Shown here one piece after another: positions 19,036-35,583 of a stretch of 64,000 bases of DNA. Each line of letters starts with the position of its first letter. The stretch's first letter is position 1. The stretch lies in the NCBI GenBank assembly GCA_030950365.1, contig JAUZRQ010000038.1:1-64000 (forward strand), read 5' to 3'. The position numbers and the translations under genes are program-made. The DNA is from Candidatus Zhuqueibacterota bacterium (GTDB lineage: Bacteria; Zhuqueibacterota; Zhuqueibacteria; Zhuqueibacterales; Geothermadaptataceae). The notes below the pieces were generated by a model. The model was not told where the DNA came from, ran no database searches, and was given only the letters and a program-made list of their open reading frames with translations.

Positions 19036-21927
19036 TTGTCTCGCCTGAAGGCCACACTGTGGGAATGGAGCATGATTGTCTGCTCCGTCGCCCATCTCGT
19101 TCTGTTACGCATACCATCCATCCACGCGCAGGCTTCTCTGCCCAAAACCGGCGCAATCATCGTTTCGCCTTTGGCTTTATTTCTGCAGGATAGCACTGCT
19201 ATTCGCAGCTATCCCAACCTTATTCACCTTGAATCCAGCGCCCAAACACCGCCAGTGTTACATTTGTTGTTGAAGAGCCGGATTCCGCCGCAGCGGCTCG
19301 AACATGAACTTCCAGTATCTATTCGGGCCACTGCAGGCGAAATCGCCACGGCCGCCATTCGGCTTGCCGATTTACCGGACCTGCTGCGGTCCGGGTATGT
19401 GGAAATGGTGATGCCGGCACAGCGCCTGTTCCTTGAAAACGATTCCGCTCGCCACGCCGCCCGCATTGACCGCATCTGGCAGGCGCAGAAAAGCCGGCCG
19501 CCCGGCCTGGTGCCTTACCGGGGCCGCGGCGTGATCATCGGCATTGTGGATACGGGTATCGACTGGCGGCATGGCGATTTCATTGACGACCGCACCGGCG
19601 AATCGCGCATTTTGTATCTATGGGACCAGAGTCTGCAACCCACCAACGCAGAAAAGTCGCCCCAGCCGTACAATTACGGTGTGGAATACACCCGGGACAT
19701 GCTGACGCAGCAGATACACGGTCGGGGCAGTCCGCCGGTGCGTTCGCGCGATATCCATGGCCATGGGACGCATGTGGCCGGGATTGCGGCCGGGGACGGC
19801 TCTCAGACCGCGGAACCGGAACGGTTTCCACCAGGCACCTATGCCGGGGTCGCGCCGGAGGCCAGCCTGGTGGTCGTGAAAGTCCCGGAAGCCATTTATG
19901 AAGATCATATTCTCGATGCCATTCACTACATATTCGATCGCGCGGACCGGCTGAACATGCCCGCGGTGATCAACCTGAGCCTGGGTTCGCATTTTGGTGC
20001 GCATGACGGCAGCGCGCTTCTGGAACGTGCCATCGATGCATTGAGTGGGCCGGGCCGGATCGTGGTAAAATCCGCCGGCAACGATGCGGCGCATCCGGCG
20101 TGGCCGCAGTTTGTGCACGCTGAAGGAACCGTGGCGGTTGGCGATACGGCCATCATTGAATTCGATGTACCGGAATACCAGCCGCAACCGGGCCGCAGCA
20201 ACGACGTTTTGCGCATCGAGATGTGGTATCAGGGACGGGACCGGTTGGAGGTGGCCGTGGTTCGGCCGGACGGCAGCGGGGCGCACGCCCGGTATCGCGG
20301 CGTGGCCACGCAGTCGGGAAGTGGCGGCTTTGTGGCCATTTTCAACGCCGATGCCGGCCCGAATCCCATCAACGGCGACAACCGCTGCAGCATTGATGTG
20401 TACGATATCCTCCCGGATACGCCGCCGGCCTCCGGCCCATGGCAGATTCGCATCACCGCAAGCGAAGTGAATGAAAGCGGCCATTTCGATTTGTGGATGG
20501 CAGCATCGCAACTGGGTGCGGCGGGGCAAAAGGCCTATTTCACCCGTGGCGGCGAAAACGATGAGCTGGTCACCCTGCCAGGAACCGCGAAGCGCATTAT
20601 TACGGTCGGTGCGTTCAGCACCCGGAGCGGCTTCCCGTCGACGGATGGTAATACTTACGTGCTGCCGGACGCGCGTCCTGGCGAGCTGGCGTATTACAGC
20701 GCTTTTGGCACCCGCGAGGATGCGGCCGCCGGCCTGCTATCCCGGCAGAAACCCGATATCTGCGCTGCGGGTTTCGGGGTGATTTCCGCATTGTCGCAGG
20801 ATTCCGGGCTGCGCAAATCCCTCTGGATGGCCGCTGACCGGGCGCACGCCCTGATGGTGGGCACAAGCATGAGCGCGCCGCAGGTGGCTGGCATCGTGGC
20901 GCTACTGTTTCAGCAGAATCCAGCCTATACGCCAGAAGAGATCATGACGCTGCTGGCGGCCGCCGCGCTTGCTGATCCAGCGACCGGTCCCACACCCAAT
21001 CCGCGCTGGGGATACGGCAAAGTCGATGCGTTTGCCGCCCTGGGGGGCACCCGGCCACCCGCGGCGGTGACGGACATCCAGATCACCGGTCAGGGCCGGC
21101 AGCTCACCTGGCGCTTTCGCGAGCGGGATGAACAGGGATTCCCGGAGAAGTACAGCCATTTCGAAATTTACGCGGCGGAGGAGCCGTACCTCGTTTCCTA
21201 TCAGGGAGCTAAACGGATCGCTGAGTCCCGGTGGCCCATCTTTCAGCTCGATAATCTAAGACAGCTCGGGCCATTTTCATCACCGCAGTTTCTGTGGGTC
21301 GTGGCGGTAGATGAATTCGGCAACCGGTCGCGTGGTTCGCCGGCCGTCGCTCGCGCGGCGTTCCGGACTAAAGCGCGGGCCAGCGGGGGCTCTCAGTTGC
21401 TGCCGTGGTGGTTCGAGCATTCCGAAATCCGCACGGCAGCGCAATGGCTGGCGGCGGTCCCGGCGATCGATGCGATAGCGCGCTGGGAAGTGGCGGGTCA
21501 GCGCTGGCAGGTACTTGCCCGGGACGATTCGACGGGTGATTTTGAATTGCAAGCGGGGCAGGTCTATCGCCTGCAGGCATGGCGTGACACGACGGTCGTT
21601 CTTTATGGTCGCGTTCCGGAGCACCTGCAATTTCGGTTGCAAACGGGCGAAAATAAGAACAATAACCTGATCTGGATTCCGTTTGATAAAAGCGAATTGC
21701 AATGGGCGTCGGATCTGGCGCGGGATATCGGGTCGGAGGTAGAGCTGGTGTCGATCTGGAATGCACGGTCCCAGAGCTGGCGCTCGTATCTCCCGGGATT
21801 GCCATTCACCGATTTCCGTATTCGGCCCGGGTGGCCGGTCATGGTTTCTGTGAAGGCGCCGGTAGTGTGGCCGTGGCGTCCTGCGGAAATGCTGCAACCG
21901 CAACCGATCCATGGACAAAAGCCCTAA
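19036..21927 (+). CDS. Secreted subtilisin-like (S8) serine protease with tandem C-terminal module
   Basis: Extracellular endopeptidase with the full triad: IIGIVDTGIDWRHGDF (Asp), DIHGHGTHVAGIAAG (His) and MVGTSMSAPQVAGIVALL (Ser). There is a signal peptide at the N-terminus (VAHLVLLRIPSIHAQA) and a propeptide-like region before about residue 160. An insert with a beta-rich fold sits between the His and Ser segments, as in lactocepin-type subtilases. After an fn3-like segment (about 675-780), the C-terminus (21385-21880) consists of two copies of the module also found at the ends of the proteins at 23.8-25.8 and 26.0-29.2 kb. The canonical sorting domain is absent. The TTG start gives a positively charged leader with AGGGAG 9 nt upstream; ATG at 19072 is the alternative. 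Confidence 0.85.
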   Translation: MSRLKATLWEWSMIVCSVAHLVLLRIPSIHAQASLPKTGAIIVSPLALFLQDSTAIRSYPNLIHLESSAQTPPVLHLLLKSRIPPQRLEHELPVSIRATAGEIATAAIRLADLPDLLRSGYVEMVMPAQRLFLENDSARHAARIDRIWQAQKSRPPGLVPYRGRGVIIGIVDTGIDWRHGDFIDDRTGESRILYLWDQSLQPTNAEKSPQPYNYGVEYTRDMLTQQIHGRGSPPVRSRDIHGHGTHVAGIAAGDGSQTAEPERFPPGTYAGVAPEASLVVVKVPEAIYEDHILDAIHYIFDRADRLNMPAVINLSLGSHFGAHDGSALLERAIDALSGPGRIVVKSAGNDAAHPAWPQFVHAEGTVAVGDTAIIEFDVPEYQPQPGRSNDVLRIEMWYQGRDRLEVAVVRPDGSGAHARYRGVATQSGSGGFVAIFNADAGPNPINGDNRCSIDVYDILPDTPPASGPWQIRITASEVNESGHFDLWMAASQLGAAGQKAYFTRGGENDELVTLPGTAKRIITVGAFSTRSGFPSTDGNTYVLPDARPGELAYYSAFGTREDAAAGLLSRQKPDICAAGFGVISALSQDSGLRKSLWMAADRAHALMVGTSMSAPQVAGIVALLFQQNPAYTPEEIMTLLAAAALADPATGPTPNPRWGYGKVDAFAALGGTRPPAAVTDIQITGQGRQLTWRFRERDEQGFPEKYSHFEIYAAEEPYLVSYQGAKRIAESRWPIFQLDNLRQLGPFSSPQFLWVVAVDEFGNRSRGSPAVARAAFRTKARASGGSQLLPWWFEHSEIRTAAQWLAAVPAIDAIARWEVAGQRWQVLARDDSTGDFELQAGQVYRLQAWRDTTVVLYGRVPEHLQFRLQTGENKNNNLIWIPFDKSELQWASDLARDIGSEVELVSIWNARSQSWRSYLPGLPFTDFRIRPGWPVMVSVKAPVVWPWRPAEMLQPQPIHGQKP

Positions 21928-22165
21928 AAAAAGTTCCGCAAATGGATAGACTAGCCGTAATTAATACACGAAACGAGACTCATTAAGGCAGCGGAACCTT
22001 GGTGAAAATTTCGACATATGCGAGGGTTTTATTGATTCAGGGCTTAAATTCTTTTAAATTTGCCGCACGGCTGCCGAAATAAAAAGTATGTTAATCCTGT
22101 CAGGGGTCCAATTCGTCTTAGGAAGTAAACTCAGGGCTGCATCATCGTTTAGTAAGGAGAAATCT
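21928..22165. other. Intergenic leader with a widely spaced inverted repeat
   Basis: GTTCCGC near 21933 and GCGGAAC near 21990 are perfect inverted repeats separated by about 50 nt, right after the protease gene. They could pair in a long leader or trailer RNA. No T-run follows, and no known riboswitch consensus was recognised. Confidence 0.35.
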
Positions 22166-23170
22166 ATGAAAAAAGGATGGATACAATTCATTGCAGGGAT
22201 TGTTCTAGGGGGTGCATGGGGCGTTTCCGCTTTTGCCGGGGATGCCGGCGTGGTTTATGGCGTGGTCCGAGATAGTGGTGGCAACTTTCCGGCGGACGCG
22301 GACTTTTCGTACATCGCCTATCTCAAGAACAATCCCAGTCAAACCGTCAAGCGAGCCGATGTGGATGCCAGTGGCACCACCAGCTATGACGAAACCTCCG
22401 GTACATGGACGGTGCAATTGAGTCTGTTCACCACCTGGAATGCGGGAGATACCTTGATTGTCGATTTTACGGATACTGGCGGTCCCACTGGTACTGAAAC
22501 AGGCACGGCAGTGTGTGAGATTGCTGGCACTGTTACAAATTGCGGGGATGTCAGTCTTCCCGTCGAGCTGTCAGTGTTTGAAGCGAAGGCCGGGGATGGC
22601 GTGGTGCTCATTGTCTGGCGCACCGAATCCGAAACCGATAACTTGGGTTTTTATCTGTATCGATCCACTCGTCGTAGCGGCGATTTCACTCGGATTACGA
22701 AGGACTTGATCAAGAGCCAGAGCCAGAATGGCGGTGCAGCCGACTACCAATATCTCGATAGCAGTGTTCGTAATGGCGTCACATATTACTATAAACTGGA
22801 AGACGTGAACATCAATGGCGAACGCACCATGCATGGGCCAATTTCCGCGTTGCCAAACTTTGGCCTGACCCTGGATGAGGCGGTGATCCCGGATACATAC
22901 GGCCTGGCGCAGAATTTTCCGAACCCGTTTAATCCAGGAACGCTGATCAAATATCAGTTGCCAGAGAAAGCAAAGGTGCGGCTGAATATTTACAACTTGC
23001 TTGGGCAGAAAATCCGCACCCTGGTGGATGCCGAACTGGAGCCTGGCTTTAAATCGATCTACTGGGATGGCCGGGATGATTTTGGCCGCACGGTGTCGGC
23101 AGGCGTATATATCTACGAACTGGTGGCCGGCAGCTATGTCGCCACCCGCAAAATGGTGATGGTGAAGTAG
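22166..23170 (+). CDS. Secreted protein with fn3-like domain and canonical type IX sorting domain
   Basis: 334 residues: signal peptide (GIVLGGAWGVSAFAG), an N-terminal beta-rich region of unknown function (about 25-135), then an fn3-like segment (ELSVFEAKAGDGVVLIVWRT, ETDNLGFYLYRS) common in type IX cargo. The last 85 residues are the sorting domain: YGLAQNFPNPFNP, IYNLLGQKIRTL and SAGVYIYELVAG. The N-terminal segment (GVVYGVVRDSGGNFPADADF) suggests a carbohydrate- or surface-associated beta-sandwich, but I cannot name it. AAGGAG lies 6 nt before the ATG. A strong terminator follows. Confidence 0.75.
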   Translation: MKKGWIQFIAGIVLGGAWGVSAFAGDAGVVYGVVRDSGGNFPADADFSYIAYLKNNPSQTVKRADVDASGTTSYDETSGTWTVQLSLFTTWNAGDTLIVDFTDTGGPTGTETGTAVCEIAGTVTNCGDVSLPVELSVFEAKAGDGVVLIVWRTESETDNLGFYLYRSTRRSGDFTRITKDLIKSQSQNGGAADYQYLDSSVRNGVTYYYKLEDVNINGERTMHGPISALPNFGLTLDEAVIPDTYGLAQNFPNPFNPGTLIKYQLPEKAKVRLNIYNLLGQKIRTLVDAELEPGFKSIYWDGRDDFGRTVSAGVYIYELVAGSYVATRKMVMVK

Positions 23171-23200
23171 CCTGCCAGATTCATTACGGAATGCGACATT

Positions 23201-23237
23201 AAAAGGCGCCGTTTCAAACGAAGCGGCGCCTTATTAG
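23201..23237 (+). terminator. Rho-independent terminator after the sorting-domain protein gene
   Basis: AAGGCGCCG and CGGCGCCTT form a perfect 9-bp stem 30 nt after the stop codon, followed by ATTAGTTT. The downstream T-run is short. Confidence 0.75.
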
Positions 23238-23240
23238 TTT

Positions 23241-23770
23241 GGGCTGGATCGGTTTTCATAAAAGGGGGATGAGTGGTTTTTCGGAGGCGTTCCAGTACCA
23301 AACTTTGGATTGTCAAAGTTAGTGTCGAAATGCCGGCCTGGTTGAACAGTTATTCAGCAACAATGGACCTTTTTCGCCTCATTCCCCAAGCTGAACACGG
23401 AAAAGAGGATGGGAAATATTTAGGCCGTTTTCTCCTACTAGGAAGTACATCCCCTCATTCCTCTGTCATTACGCAACCGAACAAACACAGATAGAAGCAA
23501 CATTCCGGCCGCACTGGTGAATGGCCATCCTGGCTTATTTTTAAGAGACGACGTTGTTTTACCTACGGTCGGATAGATAGAATATAAAAATACTTTCCGC
23601 AAACTCATGAATTTTGTGCTAATTTCTCCATGCAAACTTTCCGCTGATTCCGGAAATCAAATGCATTCAGATCAGTAGGGGGAAGGACCCAGGATATCGA
23701 TGGGGGCGAAAGACTCGCCACAGCTCACTTCAGGACGAACGACCGGTTGCCAATCAATCTGAAAGGGATT
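23241..23770. other. Intergenic gap of about 530 bp without a recognisable gene
   Basis: No ORF here has both a ribosome binding site and a recognisable sequence. The gap presumably carries the promoter of the first propeller-like protein gene. Confidence 0.4.
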
Positions 23771-25846
23771 ATGGCGAAAAAAACGTTCGCTTTTTTTCTG
23801 GCTTGTGGATTTTGGTTCGTCCTGTTCATGCAGTGGCGTTCAGAGATCGGATTCCATCGCGCGTCGGTGGCGTATGCCGGCAAAGGGCCTGCCCATCGGG
23901 CGGTTGTTCTTGCAACCCATGCACAGTGTGATACCAGCATCGATGACACTAAAGACGGTCTCGAAAAACCCAATCAAAGCAAAGTGTTCTATTTTGCCGA
24001 TCGCTGGTGGACCCTGGCGCTGCGTGCCGCGAATGGTGATTGGACGCTGTGGCGTCATATGGGAGGCCGCACCTGGGATCCGGTTTATACATTTAACGTA
24101 TCGAGCAAGGCGCGCCCAGACGTCCACATCGATGTTCCTGATAGCGTTTTGTACATCTTTTTTTCCGGGACGTCGGATAGCGATCTGTGGAAATTTCATT
24201 ACAACAGTTCAACGGATACCTGGGATGTGTTGTTTTGGCGGTCTGTGCCGGTGGTACACACCGTCAGTGGTGATCCGGCATCGTTTCTAAAAGCTAGGAA
24301 TGGCGACCTTTGGGCCTTCATGGCGAATAACAATCAGGTTGTGGCTGCGCACAGCATAGATGATGGCCTGAGCTGGAGCACGGTTATCATCGACAGCAGT
24401 CTCACCGCTGGCTACGGTTTGACCGATGCGCTGTGTTTCCGCGATACCGCCGGTGTTCCGTTAATCGGCGTGGCGGTCGGCGAAGATACCGATGTGGCCG
24501 CGCGGTTCCATTTTTACTGGCACCGGGAAGCGGATCCGGAGACCGTTTGGGTGAATGAGAGCAATGAGCTGGCGCCGCTGGATCAGGAGCAGGCGGATGA
24601 TCACATCGCCATGGCCGTGGATGCGCATGACAATGTGTACATCGTGACCAAAAACCACGGCAGCGGCCCCAACAACAGCCTTTACATCCGACATCCGGAC
24701 AGCACTTGGCAGGCGCTGCCGCTGAACCAGATGGCAACCTGGACGCGGCCGGCCGTTATCGTGGATGCCACTCACGATTCGCTGTATGTGATGGGCTCGC
24801 TGCAGGGCGATCGGGCGGAATACAAACGCTGCAAAATCGGCGAAGAATCTACGCTGGTCAATGACAGTCTTCGCGTGACGTTCCTCCAGAATGGCGGCGA
24901 TTACATGGTCAACCTGTCGGTACCGGTGCATGCGGCCTACGATAGCACCGAACTGTTGGTGATCGCCGATAACAGCACCCAGGGCAATGTCTGGTTCGCG
25001 ATCCTGCCCATTGGCAATGCGGCGCCGTGTCCGTTCCATCCGCAGCCGATCGACAGCACGATTCGCAATCTGACCATCACCCGGAACGGCAACCATGTGG
25101 TGCTGACCTGGACGGCGATTGCCGAGGCCGATAGCTACGGCATTTATCGCGGCTTGCACCCCATGTTTTCAGCAGACACCTCGCTGCTGGCGATGGTGAC
25201 TCAGGCCAGCTTTACGGACAGTAACGCGCTCGGCAATCCAGACGAAAATCATTTTTATCAGGTGCGGGCGTTTTTTGCCGGCACCCCCGGACCGCTGAGC
25301 AAACGCGTGGGCGAATTCGAATACCGGCTGATTTCACCGCCGGGAAAAACAAACAATTTCATCGCCCTGTGTCTGCAGGACACGGCGATTCAGTGGGCAT
25401 CGGATTTTGTGACTCGCATCGGGCCGTCGGTGGACCTGGTATCCAAATGGACTGAGAGCGCCCAGGCATGGGGGTCCTACATTCCAGGACTGTCCTTTAC
25501 CGATTTTCCGGTGGACGTGAATGAAGTGTACATGATCAGCGTGACGCAGGAGGATACTTTGGTTTTGCTCGGGGATGTCCCCATCGGACACCAGTACTCT
25601 TTAATCACCACCACGATTGGCAAAAATAACAACGGGATTATGCTGTTGATGGATGCGGATACCATTCGTATGGCGTCCGAGCTGGCTCAAGCCATTGGTT
25701 CGGTAGATCTGGTGTCCAAATGGACTGCAACGGCGCAAGCCTATGGCAGCTATATTCCAGGGTTGAGTTTTACAGATTTTCCCATTTATCCGGGTCAGCC
25801 GCTTATGGTGTCGGTTACGGCCGACACGGTCTGGCCTGTCCGATAG
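23771..25846 (+). CDS. Secreted propeller-like protein with tandem C-terminal module (paralogue 1)
   Basis: 691 residues, with a signal/anchor segment (TFAFFLACGFWFVLFMQW). Residues about 45-430 resemble a sialidase-like beta-propeller. The region opens with the motif CDTSIDDTKDGLEKPNQ and contains repeated WxLWR and DLWxF strands and HDSLYVMGSLQGDRAEYKRC. An fn3-like domain follows (about 435-520: IRNLTITRNGNHVVLTWTAI). The last 170 residues are two copies of a shared module: copy 1 includes SYIPGLSFTDFPVDVNEVYM and LLGDVPIGHQYSLI, and copy 2 ends with a closely matching segment and VWPVR. No catalytic residues or canonical sorting domain are seen. GAAAGGG lies just before the ATG at 23771, which is preferred to the upstream TTG. 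Confidence 0.75.
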   Translation: MAKKTFAFFLACGFWFVLFMQWRSEIGFHRASVAYAGKGPAHRAVVLATHAQCDTSIDDTKDGLEKPNQSKVFYFADRWWTLALRAANGDWTLWRHMGGRTWDPVYTFNVSSKARPDVHIDVPDSVLYIFFSGTSDSDLWKFHYNSSTDTWDVLFWRSVPVVHTVSGDPASFLKARNGDLWAFMANNNQVVAAHSIDDGLSWSTVIIDSSLTAGYGLTDALCFRDTAGVPLIGVAVGEDTDVAARFHFYWHREADPETVWVNESNELAPLDQEQADDHIAMAVDAHDNVYIVTKNHGSGPNNSLYIRHPDSTWQALPLNQMATWTRPAVIVDATHDSLYVMGSLQGDRAEYKRCKIGEESTLVNDSLRVTFLQNGGDYMVNLSVPVHAAYDSTELLVIADNSTQGNVWFAILPIGNAAPCPFHPQPIDSTIRNLTITRNGNHVVLTWTAIAEADSYGIYRGLHPMFSADTSLLAMVTQASFTDSNALGNPDENHFYQVRAFFAGTPGPLSKRVGEFEYRLISPPGKTNNFIALCLQDTAIQWASDFVTRIGPSVDLVSKWTESAQAWGSYIPGLSFTDFPVDVNEVYMISVTQEDTLVLLGDVPIGHQYSLITTTIGKNNNGIMLLMDADTIRMASELAQAIGSVDLVSKWTATAQAYGSYIPGLSFTDFPIYPGQPLMVSVTADTVWPVR

Positions 25847-25881
25847 ATTAAAATTTTTTCATTTATTTTGGCTGCACCTTT

Positions 25882-25899
25882 ACGCATCATGCGTTTTTT
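25882..25899 (+). terminator. Possible short terminator between the two propeller paralogues
   Basis: ACGCA-TCA-TGCGT is followed directly by TTTTT, 35 nt after the stop codon. The stem is only 5 bp, so termination may be partial and the two paralogues may be co-transcribed. Confidence 0.4.
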
Positions 25900-25975
25900 C
25901 TCTTATAATTTTATACAAACCGCAGGGAAGCGTCCAGCAAGGAAGCATGGGGTTTAATTTGGAGGCAAGACAACA

Positions 25976-28900
25976 ATGGATCGGCATCGTATTTCCAGAT
26001 GGCTACTTTTGGGTGTAGGCGCATGGGGCTTTTTGCTATATGTGACGAATTTTCAACCGACGGACTCACGCAAATCATCCAGTCTGGTTCCCACCTTACC
26101 TCTCCTTTATGCCGGAGCCGGCGATGGATATCGGTACTCCATCTTAGCCGCGAACGGGGATTGCGATACCGTTATCAGCGATACCAAAAAAGGCCTGGAT
26201 AAGCCTAATCAGAACAAACTGTTTTTTCATGATTCCACCTGGTGGATGCTAACCATTAGGACCAGTACCAACAAATGGAATCTTTGGCGGCATGATTCGT
26301 TGTGGATCTGGACGCCGGTTTTTGAGTTTCCGGTCTCCAGCAAAGATCGACCGGATGCGCATCTGGATGCGGTCAATAATCGCGTATTCATTTTCTTTTC
26401 CAGCAAGTCCACTAGCCGACTGTATAAGTTGCAATACGATCCGAATACCGGCAACTGGACCGAGATCAGTAATCACACCGTGCCTGAGGTGCTGTCGGTG
26501 GCGGACAATCCGGCCAGTTTTGTGCGCGCTCTGAACGGCGATCTCTGGGCGTTTATGGTGACCAGTGGCCAGGTCATCGGGGTCAAAAGTACGGATGAGG
26601 GCGCGACCTGGAGCAGTCGCATAACCATTCTCAATGCGCTTAATTCCACTTCCGGGTTGACCGATGCGGTGGCGTTTACCGATACTGGCGGCGTTACTAG
26701 CATCGCTCTCGGGGTGGCTGAAAATGCGGGCGCCAGCTCGCAGTTCTATTTCCTGTTGCATCGGGACGGCGCCGCAGACACGGACTGGATTGATGAAAGT
26801 AGCAATCTCACGCCGATCAATGGGGAAGGTGCTGATGATCACCTGGCAATGACGGTGGATGAAAACAATAACGTGTATATGATTACCAAAACTACCGGTG
26901 GCGGCAGTACGGTACCCGAAAACACCCTGTACATTATGGGCAAAGCCGTGACCGTTTGTGATACCAGTATCGAAAATACCCGCAAAGGGCTTGAGAAGCC
27001 CAACCAGCATAAGGTGTTTTACCATGATTCGAAATGGTGGATGATCGCCAAAAAAGCGACCACCAATCAATGGAACCTCTGGCGTTTTGCGGGTGGCATC
27101 ACATGGATATCGGTTTACGAATTCACCGTATCTTCGAAAGATAACCCGGATCTGCATATTGATAATGCCAACAATAAGTTATATGTCTTCTTTTCCGGGA
27201 AGTCCGGCAGCAGTTCCTTGTGGACCATGAGCTATAATGTCATTGCTGAAAATTGGACGAAGATCGGCGAAGTGGCCGTTCCGGTTGTGAGAACCGTGGC
27301 CGATAATCCTGCCAGTTTTACCATCGCTAAAAATGGCGATTACTGGTCGTTTATGGCTTCGGATACGCAACTGGTAGCTGTACGCAGTTCCGATCAGGGA
27401 GCGACATGGAGTTCGACGATCGTGATCAAGGATACCTTGTACTCGTCTTATGGAATTACCGATGCTGTTCCGTTTACCGACAATAAGGGCGTTAACTGGG
27501 TGGCGCTGGCCCTGGCCGAAAACGCCAACACGAATTCCAAATTTGGTTTTTTTCTGCACCGGGATGGCGATCCCGATACGGTTTGGGTCGATGAGAGCAA
27601 TAATGTGACCATGTTTGGCGTCGAACGCTCCGACGATCACATCAACCTGGCTGTGGATAGCAATAATAATGTGTATATGGTGGTGAAAACCACCGGCGGC
27701 GGGGCTGGGTCGCCAGAAAATTCGCTGTACAAGCGCATGCCGGATAGCACCTGGCAGAAGTATATCCTGATCGATGGCAACGACTGGACCCGGCCGGCGA
27801 TCGTCATCGACGAAAGCCATGACAGTCTGTACGTGTTCGGCACACGTGAAACCGCATCCATCGGCAAGGTTGTGGAGTATAAACGCTGCAAAATTGGCGA
27901 AGAGAACACCCTTGAAACAGCGACGCGCGTGGCTGTCATTGATAATGGATTGGACGATTTTCTGAACGTGGCCGTACCCGCTATGGCGGTGTACGATTCT
28001 ACCGAATTAATGTTGATTGCGGACAATGTTGACTCCAGCAATGTCTGGTTTCGACAGCTCTCCATCGGGACTCCGGTGCCGTGTCCCTCCATTGGCCGCT
28101 GGCGCAGTTACGCCGTGGTCGATGGTGATGGCTGGACACGCCCCGGCATTGTGATCGATGACCAACATGATAGCCTGTATGTGTTCGGCACTCGGGAAAC
28201 GGCATCCATTGGCAAAGTGATCCAGTATAAGCGCTGTCAGTTAGGCGAAGAATGGTATCTGGAATCAGAGAGCCCGGTGACGGTCATTGATCATGGCACG
28301 GATGATTTTCTCAACCTGTCTCTGCCGGGGCACGCAGTGCACGATACCACAGAATTGATGGTCATCACTGCCAATCAGGATTCCAACGATGTGTGGTTTA
28401 CGCGCATCGACATCGGCAATGCCGCCGGCTGTATCACGGCGTTTGATACTACGATCAATAATTTGACCATCATGCAAGCCGGAAACGGCGTGCAGTTGAA
28501 GTGGAATGCCGTGGCGTTTGCCGACAGTTACGTGGTGTACCGCGGCTACAATCCCATGTTCTCACCGGATACGGCGCGGCTGGCCAGCACGACCGACACC
28601 ACATATACTGATGCCAATGTGCTGGGCGATCCCAACGTGAACCATTTCTATGTGGTCCGGGCGTATGTCAATGGCAGCCCGGGACCGCCGAGTACGCGCG
28701 TGGGTGAGTTCGAATACGAGCTGATTTCGCCTCCAGGCAAAACCAACAACTTTGTCGCCCTCTGTCTCCGCGACCCAGGTATCAATATGGCGTCGGATTT
28801 TGTAACCCGCATCGGGCCGACGGTGGATCTGGTATCCAAGTGGACCGAGTCGGCCCAGGCATGGGGATCGTACATTCCGGGCTTGGCGTTCACCGATTTT

Positions 28901-29239
28901 GCGGTGGAAGTCAACGAAGTGTACATGATCAGTGTCACGGCGCAAGACACGCTTTTGCTGCTGGGTGAGGTGCCGACCGGCCACCAGTATGTGCTGATCA
29001 CCACGGCTTCGGGCAAGAACAACAACGGCATGATGGTGCTGATGGATACCGACACCCTGACTCTGGCCTCGGAGCTGGCGAATGCCATCGGGCCGGTGGA
29101 CCTGGTGTCCAAATGGACCGCAACGGCTCAGGCGTACGGTAGTTACATCACCGGTCTGCCGTTCACCGATTTCACGATTTCGTTTGGTATGCCGCTTATG
29201 GTTTCGGTGACGCAGGACACAACCTGGCCGAAGCGATAA
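25976..29239 (+). CDS. Secreted propeller-like protein with duplicated units and tandem C-terminal module (paralogue 2)
   Basis: 1087 residues with an N-terminal hydrophobic segment (WLLLGVGAWGFLLYVTNF). It is an expanded paralogue of the upstream gene. The propeller half that opens CDTxIxxTxxGLxKPNQ occurs twice (about 60-320 and 323-590). The half containing HDSLYVFGTRETASIGKV also occurs twice (about 600-700 and 715-815). An fn3-like domain follows (about 823-910) and then the same two-copy C-terminal module (28730-29236). The order is A-A-B-B against A-B in paralogue 1. Whether it binds glycans or other partners is unknown. GGAGGC lies about 10 nt before the ATG. Confidence 0.75.
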   Translation: MDRHRISRWLLLGVGAWGFLLYVTNFQPTDSRKSSSLVPTLPLLYAGAGDGYRYSILAANGDCDTVISDTKKGLDKPNQNKLFFHDSTWWMLTIRTSTNKWNLWRHDSLWIWTPVFEFPVSSKDRPDAHLDAVNNRVFIFFSSKSTSRLYKLQYDPNTGNWTEISNHTVPEVLSVADNPASFVRALNGDLWAFMVTSGQVIGVKSTDEGATWSSRITILNALNSTSGLTDAVAFTDTGGVTSIALGVAENAGASSQFYFLLHRDGAADTDWIDESSNLTPINGEGADDHLAMTVDENNNVYMITKTTGGGSTVPENTLYIMGKAVTVCDTSIENTRKGLEKPNQHKVFYHDSKWWMIAKKATTNQWNLWRFAGGITWISVYEFTVSSKDNPDLHIDNANNKLYVFFSGKSGSSSLWTMSYNVIAENWTKIGEVAVPVVRTVADNPASFTIAKNGDYWSFMASDTQLVAVRSSDQGATWSSTIVIKDTLYSSYGITDAVPFTDNKGVNWVALALAENANTNSKFGFFLHRDGDPDTVWVDESNNVTMFGVERSDDHINLAVDSNNNVYMVVKTTGGGAGSPENSLYKRMPDSTWQKYILIDGNDWTRPAIVIDESHDSLYVFGTRETASIGKVVEYKRCKIGEENTLETATRVAVIDNGLDDFLNVAVPAMAVYDSTELMLIADNVDSSNVWFRQLSIGTPVPCPSIGRWRSYAVVDGDGWTRPGIVIDDQHDSLYVFGTRETASIGKVIQYKRCQLGEEWYLESESPVTVIDHGTDDFLNLSLPGHAVHDTTELMVITANQDSNDVWFTRIDIGNAAGCITAFDTTINNLTIMQAGNGVQLKWNAVAFADSYVVYRGYNPMFSPDTARLASTTDTTYTDANVLGDPNVNHFYVVRAYVNGSPGPPSTRVGEFEYELISPPGKTNNFVALCLRDPGINMASDFVTRIGPTVDLVSKWTESAQAWGSYIPGLAFTDFAVEVNEVYMISVTAQDTLLLLGEVPTGHQYVLITTASGKNNNGMMVLMDTDTLTLASELANAIGPVDLVSKWTATAQAYGSYITGLPFTDFTISFGMPLMVSVTQDTTWPKR

Positions 29240-29258
29240 AGCCATGATTCATCCGTGG

Positions 29259-29300
29259 CGGGTGCGGGGATGTCATTCGCACCCGTCAAATGATTTTTAA
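29259..29300 (+). terminator. Likely terminator after propeller paralogue 2
   Basis: CGGGTGCG and CGCACCCG form a perfect 8-bp stem 19 nt after the stop, followed by TCAAATGATTTTT. The T-run is slightly displaced. Confidence 0.6.
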
Positions 29301-29703
29301 CCATTCAATCAACCATGGATGATGGAGATTGGCGGTGATTTTTTGAAGCCATGAATTGACGCGGAGGGTCTGTTCCCGGCATTAAAAAAGCGGTAGGATT
29401 TTCAGTTTGTGAGAACAACCACATGCTGGGGCTTTCTGAAAAGCCTGAAAAATGACCTCTGCGGTCCCGGCGCCTTTGCGAGAGATTTATTTCGCCGGTT
29501 TTTGATGAATGCCAGAATAATGGCGATTCTTTTGCAACTCTATGAATAATTTAAAATTTTGACAACTTTCAGTTTCCTGTTGTTTTCTTTTCGCATTTGG
29601 TCTATTTTAGAATCCCTTATTGGCACGTCGCACGTCGACAATCAATTTGTTTCACATTGTGGAGAGTTTGGACATCGCATCAGGAAGGAAGCAACGTGGA
29701 AGT
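29301..29703. promoter_or_regulatory. Intergenic region upstream of the PorU-like gene
   Basis: About 400 bp, AT-rich toward its 3' end. TTGACA occurs at 29559-29564, but no good -10 box lies 17 nt downstream, so a promoter here is only suggested. No gene seen. Confidence 0.3.
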
Positions 29704-32700
29704 ATGAGGATTTCCTGTAAGGTATTATTGACGACGCGCCGCCTGGGGTGGTTGATTTTATCTATTTTACTTTCAAGCGATTCCGTCCTCGCCGGTTCTC
29801 CTGTTTCCATTATCCATTCATCTGCGAATCGAATTGTTCTGAAAATTCAGTTCGAAGCGTCTGTGCCACGGGCGCTGCAGACAGGGGATATTTCGGATTC
29901 CGGCGAACTGCAATGGTTCACCCAGCCGGATTCCAGCCGAACCCTGGTATGGATTCGTCCTTTTTTCGCGAACCAACGGGTAAAATCCGTTGAGGCACTC
30001 GAGCTGCATACGCGAAAAATCAATCTCCCGAAAACCATTACCCGCCTGGCGGCTATGCAGCCAATGCTGGCAATCAAACGTATCGGCCAGTTTCGTGGTG
30101 AACAGGTACAGGCTCTGTATGTGTATCCCTTGCGCCATATCGCTGAAGGAACAGCCGAATACATCAGCAGCATCACTGTGGAAGTGACCTTTACCGCGGA
30201 TGCCACTGGCAGTGCATCCACGGCCATGGCTTTTGAGGATGAAGCCCTGTACCGTGCCGTGAAAAAGGAGTTGCCTCGCAGGCCGGTTTCCCGTGTAGGT
30301 TTGCTGAGTAAGACCGCCAGCTCCATCAACACAGCACAGGTCAAAATCATCGTCGATCGAGATGGCATCTACCAAATCCGATACGAAGACCTGCTGGAAG
30401 CCGGCATTGAATTGCCGGACGAACTCAGTTCATGGTCGCTACGGTTGTTCTGCCGCAATGCCGATGTGCCGATTTATGTGGAAGACCACAACGATGGCCG
30501 ATTCGGCCCGGGTGATTACATTGAATTTTATGGCCAGTACAGCCGGGCTCCGCGCACGGCCAGCGCTCCCGATGTCTATCTAGATGTATATTCCACCGAA
30601 AACGTTTACTGGCTCGAGTGGGACCAGCAGCCAGGCCAGCGGCTAATGGAGGAAGAAGGTCTGGTTCTGGTAACCGATCCTCGCAATTACCGCCGGGTTT
30701 ACAGTTTTCCATCGAAAATTCATTTTGAGCGGGATTATGCCTACAACCGGTTAAGCCAGTACCAGAGTCAAGCACCGCGCGACCACTGGTTCTGGACCGG
30801 CGTGTTTTCCAGCGAAAAGCGCGAGCTGGTTTTGGATTTGCCGCATCCGGATACACAGTCCGATATGCCGGTGGAGCTCCGCATCATGCTGCACGGGCAG
30901 ACGTTTTCCGACTCGCTGCCGCATGTCGTGGAAGCCTTCTTGAACCGCCGCCTGGTATTGAATGGCCAGTGGTTCGGCCAGACACCGTATTTGCTGAAAA
31001 CCGGCCCAAACGATCGCATCAACGCCAATGTATTGAACCCGGTGCGCAATTCCGTGACGGTGGTGAACCGCGCCCCGGCGGATGTTATCGATCAATTTTT
31101 TATCAACTGGATCGAAATCACCTATCCAAGGCTTCTGAAAGCATACAAAGGCTACATCGAGTTTACCATTCCGGAAAACGAGCGGATGGGTTTGTTCGAT
31201 TTCGAGATTTCCGGGTTTACGCAGGAACAGATCAGCATTTACAAACTGGGCGTCAGCAAAATCATCGGGGCGGATATCGAAACCATCATCGAGGAAGAAG
31301 ATACCACATTTGTGGCCCATTTTCAGGATGAAGTGTATTCGCCAGACGTGCGCTACGTGGCGGTGCAGGAATCGGCCAAGCTGAAACCGCTGCGCATCGA
31401 ACCGCATGAACCGATGGAGCTACGCCATCCAGCCGAGCCGGGAGATTATATCGCCATTGTGGCGGATTCGCTGTATGAATCCGAGGCGCTGCAACAGCTC
31501 GTGGCCCACCGGGAATCGCAGGGGCATCGGGTTTTTGTGGTGCCCGTATCGCACGTATTCAACCAGTTTAGCTATGGCTTGCCCTGGCCTAGTGGTATTC
31601 GGGATTTCCTCCGCTATGCCTATTTCAACTGGCCGGTGGCGCCCAAATACGTGGTGCTGGTCGGTGACGGCTCATTCGATCAGCGGGATATCCACAAGCA
31701 AGGCACCAACCTCATCCCTGTGTACGCCCGACAGGTGGCGAAGTACGGTGCGGCGGTCAGCGAACATTGGTATTCGCTGATGACCGATCCTGATGAGCTA
31801 CCGGATATTTATCTGGGCCGGCTGCCGGTGAACACCGAAGAAGACCTGCAGGCGCTGGTAAGCAAGATCATTGAATATGAAACCATGCCGGATCGGGACG
31901 AGTGGCTCAACCGGATGCTTTTGATTGGCGGTAATGGTTTTATTTTTCGGCAACAGAGTGAATTTTTATTACGAAACGTATTGCCTGCCCGCATGGATAT
32001 TCACCGCCTGTACACCTGGCGCGATCCCCGGCTCAGCGACGATCCATTTTTTGGCGGCACCTCCGATCTGATTGAATATTTCAACGACGGAATGTTTCTG
32101 ATCAACTTCATGGGCCATGGCGGCGGAGCCATCTGGGCAGACAATTCCCTGATGCGCCTCGAAGATGTGGAACGGCTGAGCAACAAAGGCCGGTATCCGA
32201 TCATCACCAGCATGACCTGTTTCACCGGCGCGTTTGATAATTCCTGGCGCAAAACCCTGGCCGAGGAATTTTTACTGCAACCCGATCGAGGGGCACACGC
32301 CATCTGGGCTTCGTCCGGGCTGGGCTGGACATACGAAGACTTCAATATCGTGCGCGAACTCTTCGATTTGATGAACAAATACGGCAATGCGCTGACGCTC
32401 GGCGAATACCTGGCGGCGGCCAAAATCAATTACATCGCCAAGCATTTGAATGCCCTGGGCTTTAGCATTCTGAATCAGTACAATCTACTGGGCGATCCTG
32501 CCACTCGTTTGCTGTTGCCTGCCCCCAAAATCACGCTCAATGCGCCAGGGCCATTTGTGCGCAAAGGCGACAACCTGTCCATTTCGGGCACGACCGAATT
32601 CCAGCAGGGCGAGGGCATGGCCCAGCTTGTCAATAAAGATCGGGTGGTCGAAGCTAGTGTTCCAATTACGGTTCAGAATGGCCGGTTTACCACCAGCCTC

Positions 32701-34521
32701 AGCGTTCCGGATAGTATCCATGGGCAGAAACTCTGGCTGCGTGTGTACGCCAAAAGCTCGGATGGCCAGAACCATGCATCCACCGCAAGGGAAATGAATT
32801 TGAATTTCATCTTGGTGGATTCGATTTATACCAACGTGCCGACTGCAAGTGCAGGTGTGGACTCGATCTTTTTCTTCGCACACGTGGTGCACGCCAATCC
32901 GTTGAGCAAAAAGCGGATCCTCACGCAATTGCCGACAAACGCGACGCTGCCGCTGGTTTACGATGCCGATCAGGGCGTTTATCGCACACAGCGCGGCTAT
33001 CCGCCGCTGCGGAACGGTGAGGTGGTTCGCTTTCGGTTGGAGCTGGAGGATGAGCAGGGTCACCAGTACATCTCGGCCTGGCTGGATGAGCGTCTGCGGT
33101 TTGGCCCGGATTTGAAGGTGCAGGCGAAGTACGTCGAGCTGGAAGCGGCCAATTCTCTGGCCGTGAGCGCTTATGTATTCAACATCGGTGATGCGGATGT
33201 GGATCGTGCCGTGGTTCGGTTTGAGCTGTTTGATGATTACACGCAAAGCTGGCGCTTGCTGGCCGATGACACGGTGGCCGTGGCGCAGAAAGATCGCGCG
33301 ATGGCTCGGGCCGCTCTGTCGCCCAAAACCGGGCAATGGCGGATACGCATCACCGCCGATCCGGAGAACCGCATCGCCGAATCCGACGAGCAAAATAATC
33401 AGGCTGTTAAAACGTTTATTGGCAATTTGTTCCCGGTCACCGTGCAGAATGGTACGACCCTGAATGACACGCGCACCGACACGATTCACTATGATCCATT
33501 TTTGCGGTTTTTCGTGCCGGCCGGAGCGGTGTCTGAAAATCGCTTCCTGCGTATCGATCGCCTCGATAGCCTGCGCATCAACCATCAGCCGGATTTTCAG
33601 CCGCTACAGGCCAACGGCAAACCCATCGCGTATGCAGTGAGCCTGCAGGATACAGCGCAGACCGATCCGCTTGCTGGCGTTCATCTGTTGTTTCCGGTCG
33701 ATTCGGTGCAACAAATGGTCTTCCCCGGAAACCAGCCGCAAGGCGCCAGTGAAGCGCAGCTTTGCCGGTTCGATTCGTTGAGCGGCAAATGGATCCGGGT
33801 GGATGCCGAGCGCAGCGGCGAATCCATGATCGCCCGGGTGAGCGCACCGGGGCTGTATGGCCTGTTTGTGATTCATGATCAGACCCCGCCGAAACTGGAA
33901 CTGACCGTGCAGGGCCAGCTTCTCAGTCTGGGCGGTTATGTGCCGGCCGAGCCGGTATTCCATCTCATTGCTACAGATATGAACGGCATTGACCGGTCGG
34001 CCGCCAGCGTACGTGTCTGGATCGATGATGCCCCTCTGTCGTATTCCAGCTTCACCTTCGCGGATAGTGCAGCGTCAATGAATGGGACGGCGTTCATATT
34101 CCGTCCGCCGCTTACGCCAGGCGAACATGTGCTGCGGGCGCAAATCAAAGATGCCGCCGGCAATGAAAGCGAGCCGTTCGAGGCGCTGTTTAAAGTCGCC
34201 GAAGCACAAAAGTTGATTTTTCTCGGCAATTATCCCAATCCGTTTGAAAATGCGACCACCTTTGCGTTCGAGCTGAGCGATCACGCCCGCGATCTGGAAC
34301 TCAAAATTTACACCACGTCAGGGCATCTCATCCGTACCATCACCGTGGATGAGATCGTCGAAGATCCGAATCCACTGGGGCCGAATTATCACGAGATCAC
34401 CTGGGATGCTCGCGACGCATTCGGTGAGCGCGTCGCCAACGGGCTGTATTATTTCAAGCTGAAAGTCGTATTCCAGAACGGCGTGGCCGAACACGTGGGG
34501 CGCATCGCCAGATTGAAATAG
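29704..34521 (+). CDS. porU: PorU-like C25-family sortase of the type IX secretion system
   Basis: Predicted surface cysteine protease that removes the C-terminal sorting domain of type IX cargo and links the cargo to a surface anchor. 1605 residues. A signal peptide (RRLGWLILSILLSSDSVLAG) and an Ig-like prodomain region precede the C25 domain (about 610-960). The catalytic dyad matches the gingipain/PorU pattern: His805 in NFMGHGGGAIW and Cys839 in SMTCFTGAFD. The tail holds CARDB-like and Ig-like segments and a FlgD-like end (GNYPNPFENATTF, NGLYYFKL). It is longer than Bacteroidetes PorU (usually 1100-1300). The ATG at 29704 is preferred to the upstream TTG at 29620. A PorV-family gene follows after 36 bp, the same order as porU-porV in Porphyromonas. 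Confidence 0.85.
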   Translation: MRISCKVLLTTRRLGWLILSILLSSDSVLAGSPVSIIHSSANRIVLKIQFEASVPRALQTGDISDSGELQWFTQPDSSRTLVWIRPFFANQRVKSVEALELHTRKINLPKTITRLAAMQPMLAIKRIGQFRGEQVQALYVYPLRHIAEGTAEYISSITVEVTFTADATGSASTAMAFEDEALYRAVKKELPRRPVSRVGLLSKTASSINTAQVKIIVDRDGIYQIRYEDLLEAGIELPDELSSWSLRLFCRNADVPIYVEDHNDGRFGPGDYIEFYGQYSRAPRTASAPDVYLDVYSTENVYWLEWDQQPGQRLMEEEGLVLVTDPRNYRRVYSFPSKIHFERDYAYNRLSQYQSQAPRDHWFWTGVFSSEKRELVLDLPHPDTQSDMPVELRIMLHGQTFSDSLPHVVEAFLNRRLVLNGQWFGQTPYLLKTGPNDRINANVLNPVRNSVTVVNRAPADVIDQFFINWIEITYPRLLKAYKGYIEFTIPENERMGLFDFEISGFTQEQISIYKLGVSKIIGADIETIIEEEDTTFVAHFQDEVYSPDVRYVAVQESAKLKPLRIEPHEPMELRHPAEPGDYIAIVADSLYESEALQQLVAHRESQGHRVFVVPVSHVFNQFSYGLPWPSGIRDFLRYAYFNWPVAPKYVVLVGDGSFDQRDIHKQGTNLIPVYARQVAKYGAAVSEHWYSLMTDPDELPDIYLGRLPVNTEEDLQALVSKIIEYETMPDRDEWLNRMLLIGGNGFIFRQQSEFLLRNVLPARMDIHRLYTWRDPRLSDDPFFGGTSDLIEYFNDGMFLINFMGHGGGAIWADNSLMRLEDVERLSNKGRYPIITSMTCFTGAFDNSWRKTLAEEFLLQPDRGAHAIWASSGLGWTYEDFNIVRELFDLMNKYGNALTLGEYLAAAKINYIAKHLNALGFSILNQYNLLGDPATRLLLPAPKITLNAPGPFVRKGDNLSISGTTEFQQGEGMAQLVNKDRVVEASVPITVQNGRFTTSLSVPDSIHGQKLWLRVYAKSSDGQNHASTAREMNLNFILVDSIYTNVPTASAGVDSIFFFAHVVHANPLSKKRILTQLPTNATLPLVYDADQGVYRTQRGYPPLRNGEVVRFRLELEDEQGHQYISAWLDERLRFGPDLKVQAKYVELEAANSLAVSAYVFNIGDADVDRAVVRFELFDDYTQSWRLLADDTVAVAQKDRAMARAALSPKTGQWRIRITADPENRIAESDEQNNQAVKTFIGNLFPVTVQNGTTLNDTRTDTIHYDPFLRFFVPAGAVSENRFLRIDRLDSLRINHQPDFQPLQANGKPIAYAVSLQDTAQTDPLAGVHLLFPVDSVQQMVFPGNQPQGASEAQLCRFDSLSGKWIRVDAERSGESMIARVSAPGLYGLFVIHDQTPPKLELTVQGQLLSLGGYVPAEPVFHLIATDMNGIDRSAASVRVWIDDAPLSYSSFTFADSAASMNGTAFIFRPPLTPGEHVLRAQIKDAAGNESEPFEALFKVAEAQKLIFLGNYPNPFENATTFAFELSDHARDLELKIYTTSGHLIRTITVDEIVEDPNPLGPNYHEITWDARDAFGERVANGLYYFKLKVVFQNGVAEHVGRIARLK

Positions 34522-34557: not shown

Positions 34558-35583
34558 ATGCGGAAGAACGGTTGGACCACCAGCATTGTCGTACTGGCCG
34601 TGAGTATTCTGGCCGGACGGCAGGATGCGCAGGCCGGCAAATATGCCGCCTCGTTTCTTGAAATCGGCGTTGGCGCTCGAGGATTGGGCATGGGCGGTGC
34701 CTATATTGCCCTGAGCCGGGATGTGTCGGCGTTCCATTGGAACCCGGCCGGGCTTGGCTATTTGCAGCGGCCGCAACTGGCCTTCATGTATGCTTCGCAA
34801 TTCGGGTCTCTGGCAGACCCGTTGGCCAGCTTTAACCATCTTGGCGCTGGCATGAGTTTGCCGGGCGGTGCCGGTTTTGCCGTCAACTGGGTGCGCCTGG
34901 CTTCGGATCAAATTCCCATTTATCCCGAGCTGTCCGGAGACAATCTAGGCCAGCGGCTGCGCAACCCCGAACTCCGCCCGGACGGGCAGCCATTGGGCTA
35001 TTTCGCGGATGTGGAAAATGCGTTCTATTTTTCTTTTGCTAAATTGACTTCATTTGAAATGGACTGGGGATACAACACCCTGGCGTTTCCGGTGGAAATT
35101 CCCATCGGCGTCAATTTGAAATTCATCCAGCAGAAGCTGTACGATAAATCGGCCAGCGGCTTTGGCATCGATGTCGGTGCGATGATTCGCCTGGGCATAG
35201 CGGACATGTTCAACGAGGATGCGCTCGGCAAGCTGGCCTTTGGCTTTGTGGTGAAAGATATCACCACCACCGTGCTGACCTGGAGCACGCGCCAGCGAGA
35301 CGAAATTTCGCCCAAATATCGTTGGGGATTTGCCTACGAGCAGCCGCTGGCATTCATCCACGGTAGCGTGACCTTTTCCTGGCAAACCAAAAGTCGGTAC
35401 GATCAGAGCAATCATGTCGGGTTTGAAATTAATTCGCGAGCCTTTTTTCTGCGAATCGGCTCAAGTGATGGTAAATTAACAGCAGGGACGGGTATGCATA
35501 TATGGAGAGTAAACCTCGATTACGCCTTTGTGGGATACGAGGTTGGCAATGTGCACCGACTGAGCGCGTTGATCGAGCTGTGA
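34558..35583 (+). CDS. porV: PorV/PorQ-family outer-membrane barrel protein
   Basis: 341 residues with a signal peptide (SIVVLAVSILAGRQDAQAG). It has the family hallmark near the N-terminus: FLEIGVGARGLGMGGAYIAL, then VSAFHWNPAGLGYL. The rest alternates like a 14-stranded FadL-type barrel. In type IX secretion PorV shuttles cargo from the translocon to PorU, binding the sorting domain. Its position directly after the PorU-like gene supports that role here. It overlaps the following lipoprotein gene by 4 bp. Confidence 0.85.
   Translation: MRKNGWTTSIVVLAVSILAGRQDAQAGKYAASFLEIGVGARGLGMGGAYIALSRDVSAFHWNPAGLGYLQRPQLAFMYASQFGSLADPLASFNHLGAGMSLPGGAGFAVNWVRLASDQIPIYPELSGDNLGQRLRNPELRPDGQPLGYFADVENAFYFSFAKLTSFEMDWGYNTLAFPVEIPIGVNLKFIQQKLYDKSASGFGIDVGAMIRLGIADMFNEDALGKLAFGFVVKDITTTVLTWSTRQRDEISPKYRWGFAYEQPLAFIHGSVTFSWQTKSRYDQSNHVGFEINSRAFFLRIGSSDGKLTAGTGMHIWRVNLDYAFVGYEVGNVHRLSALIEL

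Follow-up and report, generated by a model that had tools for sequence, protein, structure and literature searches.

The window, a 64,000-nucleotide stretch of contig JAUZRQ010000038.1 from a Candidatus Zhuqueibacterota bacterium, encodes three secreted proteins (A, B and C) that end in the same tandem module and lack a C-terminal sorting domain (CTD) of the type IX secretion system (T9SS). Between the genes for A and B lies a fourth gene, hereafter the partner gene, whose product combines an NPFNP-type CTD with a second unnamed domain of about 95 residues, which we call VYG after its usual VPHxVYG start. This neighbour is key to our reading of the locus. The window genome belongs to candidate division KSB1. 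The open reading frame of B opens at TTG 23747, although ATG 23771 is the likelier start; the partner frame opens at 22088, with a likelier start at 22166, just downstream of an AAGGAG. The coordinates of all features are collected in Table 1.

Table 1. Genes, domains and hairpins of the locus, in order of position in the window.
Feature	Position	Strand	Basis
Protein A, secreted S8 (subtilisin-like) protease with C-terminal tandem module, without CTD	19036..21927	+	Pfam PF00082 E 1e-37; module HMM
Module copy 1 of A, strongly degenerate	21412..21600	+	HMM 11 bits; alignment
Module copy 2 of A	21655..21879	+	HMM 136 bits
Partner protein: signal peptide, VYG, FN3-like domain, NPFNP type A T9SS CTD	22166..23170	+	TIGR04183, VYG profile
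Partner VYG domain, at mature N-terminus	22247..22549	+	Profile E 1.9e-22 (profile includes the partner itself); fused-only profile E 2e-6
Partner NPFNP T9SS sorting domain	22916..23158	+	TIGR04183 residues 277-357, 33 bits vs cut-off 23
Terminator-like hairpin, 13 bp, after partner gene	23203..23232	+	Scan; fold -24.9 kcal/mol
Protein B, secreted, propeller-like, FN3-like domain, C-terminal tandem module	23771..25846	+	Module HMM
Module copy 1 of B	25346..25570	+	HMM 139 bits
Module copy 2 of B	25622..25843	+	HMM 139 bits
Protein C, propeller-like, duplicated propeller region, FN3-like domain, C-terminal tandem module	25976..29239	+	BLASTP; module HMM
Module copy 1 of C	28739..28963	+	HMM 134 bits
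Module copy 2 of C	29015..29236	+	HMM 134 bits
Terminator-like hairpin after C, before PorU-like gene	29256..29288	+	Scan; fold -22.8 kcal/mol
PorU-like C25 paralogue with its own FlgD_ig-type C-terminus	29620-34521		NCBI profile scores
PorV/PorQ-family protein	34558-35583		84 vs cut-off 90

The C-terminal similarity of A, B and C is far above chance. BLASTP aligned the protease A with the propeller B at 42% identity over 155 residues (E 1e-27), and the paralogous propellers B and C at 63% across their last 384 residues (E 4e-159). The module unit spans about 85 residues and comprises N-x-I-x-L-x-L, a short helix (ASDLA), VDLVSKW, Q-x-x-x-SYIPGL-x-FTDF and M-V-S-V-T. Copy 2 ends at a 'WP' strand, and so lacks the final strand, which in copy 1 precedes the G-x-VP segment, and protein A runs 15 residues beyond the module end. 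A preliminary description of this DNA had proposed a two-copy C-terminal module in three secreted proteins without the NPFNP sorting domain. BLASTP, alignment and a profile hidden Markov model (HMM) confirmed the shared module, and neither A, B and C nor the module alignments matched the type A CTD families TIGR04183 and PF18962. The tandem copies also stood, whereas the two distinct copy patterns did not, both copies being versions of the one unit. The absence of NPFNP domains holds for A, B and C, but the NPFNP-bearing frame at 22088-23170 between them had been overlooked. Searches of Pfam (CHU_C included) and NCBIfam gave no match of the module proteins to type B or C CTD families. Compared with B, the propeller region of C is doubled (window positions 25976-28420), an internal duplication inside a tandem gene duplication.

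The module had no convincing family in Pfam, NCBIfam or PHROGs (weak, unnamed matches) or among PDB sequences. AlphaFold modelled the tandem confidently, with a mean predicted local distance difference test score (pLDDT) of 92 and a predicted template modelling score (pTM) of 0.85; each unit is predicted to fold as beta-beta-alpha-beta-beta-beta-beta. This fold differs from the Ig-like antiparallel seven-strand beta-sandwich of type A CTDs, and Foldseek returned no match in the PDB or BFVD at E 0.001. The comparison with type IX and Ig-like sorting domains proposed earlier thus gave a predicted fold unlike that of type A CTDs.

The module occurred in 27 of 82 KSB1 genomes, in two of the four genomes from the phylum SM23_81 and in a single genome among the 395 Bacteroidota sampled. 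The bodies that carry it were varied: S8 proteases, GH88, rhamnogalacturonan lyase (RGL11), FG-GAP propellers, and heparinase-like and GH5-like proteins. Among module proteins with an intact end, to which all architecture counts refer, two classes were found, with no length intermediates between them. Fused proteins (n=26) continued for 207–239 residues beyond the module, and split proteins (n=25, A, B and C included) ended at most about 33 residues past it. In all 26 fused proteins the module was followed by a linker of 17–38 residues, the VYG domain and a canonical T9SS CTD, with NPFNP at position -83 in nearly all. The sole Bacteroidota case, on contig JAFGGU010000048.1 of a metagenome bin labelled Bacteroidales bacterium (L086), has the fused form; it possibly reflects lateral transfer or misbinning, and the data fit either.

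For the split class, a VYG gene was the next same-strand gene downstream in 22 of 25 cases, and the remaining three genes (B and C of the window, and B of the congener G073) lie just downstream of the partner gene. VYG genes beside split-class genes nearly always carry the T9SS domain. An automated tally found a VYG gene immediately downstream of 21 of 24 split-class genes, against 20 of 240 genes without the module in those loci (p 7e-17), many of the 20 belonging to the same clusters. The SM23_81 locus L089 has two module genes followed by one VYG-FN3-CTD gene. Wherever relatives had enough flanking sequence, the module was always paired with VYG, in cis or in the gene cluster. In domain order, a split pair corresponds to a fused protein divided at the junction of module and VYG, to which a signal peptide and in most cases an FN3 domain have been added. 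The possibility that the split is a frameshift or stop artefact was rejected because the partners, by inspection, bear their own signal peptides.

These architectures bear directly on the proposal that the module, as a novel signal for T9SS sorting or anchoring, takes the place of the NPFNP domain. The proposal is favoured by the terminal position of the module in 25 proteins from genomes with PorU and CTDs, and by bodies that finish in the module where their relatives end in a CTD. However, in the 26 fused proteins the module is internal and a normal CTD follows, 55 of the 82 T9SS-bearing genomes have no module, the module matches no CTD family, and the constant nearby VYG-CTD partner is left unexplained. 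We therefore consider this proposal improbable; the module itself is probably not a sorting signal. The fused homologues also speak against the earlier suggestion of an alternative sorting signal, for which a module lying in the middle of proteins had been named as a refuting observation. The idea of a surface-attachment domain survives in modified form, as putative docking on the VYG partner instead of attachment by the module on its own.

The VYG domain, like the module, had no convincing match in Pfam, NCBIfam, PHROGs or PDB sequences, and Foldseek found likeness to generic beta-sandwiches only. The VYG profile was first built from fused proteins only and then widened with partners. The fused-only profile already found split partners, with E 2e-6 for that of the window and values as low as E 1e-21 for others, and a few of the most divergent were found only after widening. 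Split partners in general begin with a signal peptide, have VYG at the N-terminus of the mature protein, mostly followed by an FN3-like domain, and end in the CTD. The genome of the window encodes a second VYG-CTD protein (339 residues; G000:C126, L187:8137-9153) with no adjoining module gene, and its counterpart in the congener (G073:C174, L188:2703-3719) likewise has none. In many loci with fused proteins there are, in addition, genes for minimal proteins of VYG plus CTD (226–229 residues; L057:16672-17358, L060:11190-11867) or for large ones whose mature N-terminus is VYG. Larger assemblies of clients and adaptors may therefore form.

The two domains are distributed together. VYG matched 27 of 82 KSB1 genomes, and 26 of the 28 genomes with either domain had both (Fisher p 4e-19), a figure to be read with caution, since fused proteins and neighbours of the module had served to train the VYG profile. 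Both exceptions were weak matches: the module-only genome (G009) has its gene cut by a contig end, and G057 is the sole VYG match among genomes without the module. Two species of one genus vary in step, one with both domains (G054) and one with neither (G053). Over 17 split pairs, module and VYG divergence correlated with r 0.81, compared with 0.72 for module and CTD, and the partial correlation was 0.64 after removal of CTD divergence; this correlation is partly phylogeny. An AlphaFold model of a natural fused chain (module, linker and VYG; 286 residues) had a pTM of 0.85 and a linker pLDDT below 50. The pTM for an unplaced, floating VYG was estimated from the formula at near 0.56, and VYG therefore appears to be confidently placed relative to the module, as read from the summary scores (pLDDT and pTM) rather than from coordinates or the predicted aligned error.

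Module and VYG could also be independent accessory domains, each serving as a stalk or binding a ligand such as a glycan, linked by operon without binding one another, in which case the CTD-less proteins would stay in the periplasm or take another route. Many module bodies are indeed polysaccharide-active (GH88, RGL11 lyase, heparinase-like, GH5-like), and VYG also stands at the N-terminus of other CTD proteins. We nevertheless judge this unlikely, given that module and VYG strictly accompany each other, whether in cis or in trans, that the AlphaFold model places VYG confidently in cis, and that relatives of the bodies are T9SS cargo.

This last point follows from the homologues of the window proteins. 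Across the class, 22 of the 30 S8 homologues in the tree had an NPFNP CTD at the end, and the others comprised two with the module, three with a dockerin-like end and three truncated at the end of a contig. Those propeller relatives whose C-terminus is complete bear NPFNP CTDs, a paralogue from the same genome (G000:C112) among them. Because body relatives mostly end in NPFNP CTDs, the window proteins come from families that are otherwise ordinary T9SS cargo. The S8 homologues L107, L109 and L115 lack NPFNP and end in paired dockerin-like DxNxxG motifs, a further kind of CTD-less ending, and their genomes are T9SS-bearing. One of the three truncated homologues, L099 (G071:C410), leaves its contig just past 'GEYDNKLVKNTSSTSSTFISVVF'; this end resembles the module start, and the same-family genus g3 therefore probably has the module too.

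The most economical account of these observations is a docking pair with the CTD acting in trans. In the commoner design, enzyme, FN3, module, linker, VYG and T9SS sorting domain form one chain. In the split design, the enzyme stops after the module, and a small second protein with a signal peptide of its own brings VYG, FN3 and the NPFNP domain. Both halves would reach the periplasm through Sec, the module would bind the VYG of the partner, and the partner's sorting domain would take the complex through the type IX system, keep it at the surface, or both. In the window, the protein encoded at 22166-23170 could serve three clients, A, B and C, and in the SM23_81 lineage one partner appears to serve two. 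We think it rather probable that the module is a docking domain for VYG, through which a tagged partner exports or anchors tag-less enzymes in trans. The fuller proposition of a trans-acting T9SS sorting signal, with twin-module enzymes exported or anchored by a small receptor-plus-CTD adaptor that serves several clients, seems to us about evenly balanced.

Several points weigh against this account. Shared operon inheritance may partly explain both the co-occurrence and the correlated divergence, the AlphaFold model speaks for docking in cis only, and a terminator-like hairpin stands between the partner gene and those of B and C. VYG must also have other uses, because it occurs without a neighbouring module, for example in the second VYG-CTD protein of this genome. 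Binding in trans might, moreover, occur without joint export: the tag-less protein would leave by another route and then be caught by the surface-displayed VYG partner. The genetic evidence for such capture is identical to that for joint export, and a partner shared by several clients is reminiscent of a scaffold; however, the analysis identified no alternative route of export across the outer membrane, although no dedicated search for one was made, and we regard capture as fairly unlikely.

Docking in trans would have partial parallels among known systems. In the cohesin-dockerin system, enzymes of many kinds end in a small duplicated tag, which docks to the receptor domain of an anchored protein. 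The layout here is alike in its small duplicated C-terminal tag on varied enzymes and its receptor domain on a putatively anchored protein. Unlike dockerins, however, the module consists of beta-beta-alpha-beta units and lacks an EF-hand motif, the pair also occurs fused, and neither module nor VYG matched the dockerin or cohesin families of Pfam. In gingipain catalytic-adhesin complexes, the chains come from one precursor that is cleaved after export. They are similar in that one CTD can hold a non-covalent multi-chain complex at the surface, whereas here the genes are separate and their products separate Sec substrates. Type A CTD cargo (TIGR04183, PF18962) shares the secretion context, and the partner and all fused relatives bear this CTD; A, B and C do not, and would receive theirs in trans via the docking domain.

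Among published parallels, type B cargo with its PorP-like partners comes closest. Type B CTD cargo is held at the surface by cognate PorP-like proteins (SprB/SprF, PG1035/PorP; PMC9143113). There, too, a cognate protein, co-expressed in the case of SprB/SprF, binds T9SS cargo at the surface, but the cargo has a type B CTD and its partner is an outer-membrane barrel, whereas in the present case the client lacks a CTD and is paired with a small cargo protein that bears one. The conserved neighbour of the module genes is the VYG-FN3-CTD protein, not a co-encoded PorP/SprF-type barrel. CTDs of types A, B and C are set out in a review of T9SS effectors (PMC10202324), whose text, searched by term for cargo without a CTD, yielded nothing. 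Literature searches on piggyback or CTD-less T9SS export, and on KSB1 with T9SS, returned nothing relevant, subscription-only papers aside.

T9SS cargo has so far been recognised, in literature and annotation, by a CTD on the cargo itself. If CTDs can act in trans, the surface proteomes of KSB1 and related bacteria have been undercounted, and module-tagged enzymes would be predictable as surface proteins. The module-VYG pair could also be put to use in surface display, as a compact and orthogonal tag with its receptor, and it makes testable the question of whether the type IX translocon can move a non-covalent complex.

The genes downstream of C had been described as PorU and PorV. The adjacency is real, but both are relatives that score below the NCBI cut-offs and are separated from the module genes by a hairpin: the PorU-like protein scored 360 against 420 bits for PorU (NF033707) and 257 against 450 for PorU2. 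PorU-like paralogues of similar score and size (about 1600 residues) are also encoded in genomes that lack the module. All 82 KSB1 genomes contained type A CTDs and a match to the PorU family. The suggested tie between module and porU was therefore rejected, and PorU does not explain the module distribution. The hairpins behind the partner gene and C suggest three units: A with the partner, B with C, and the PorU-like gene, which looks separate from the module genes. Among the matches listed for the genome of the window (G000) there was no full-score PorU, perhaps owing to an assembly gap; the congener G073 has a full-score PorU (838 bits) on a different contig from its module genes.

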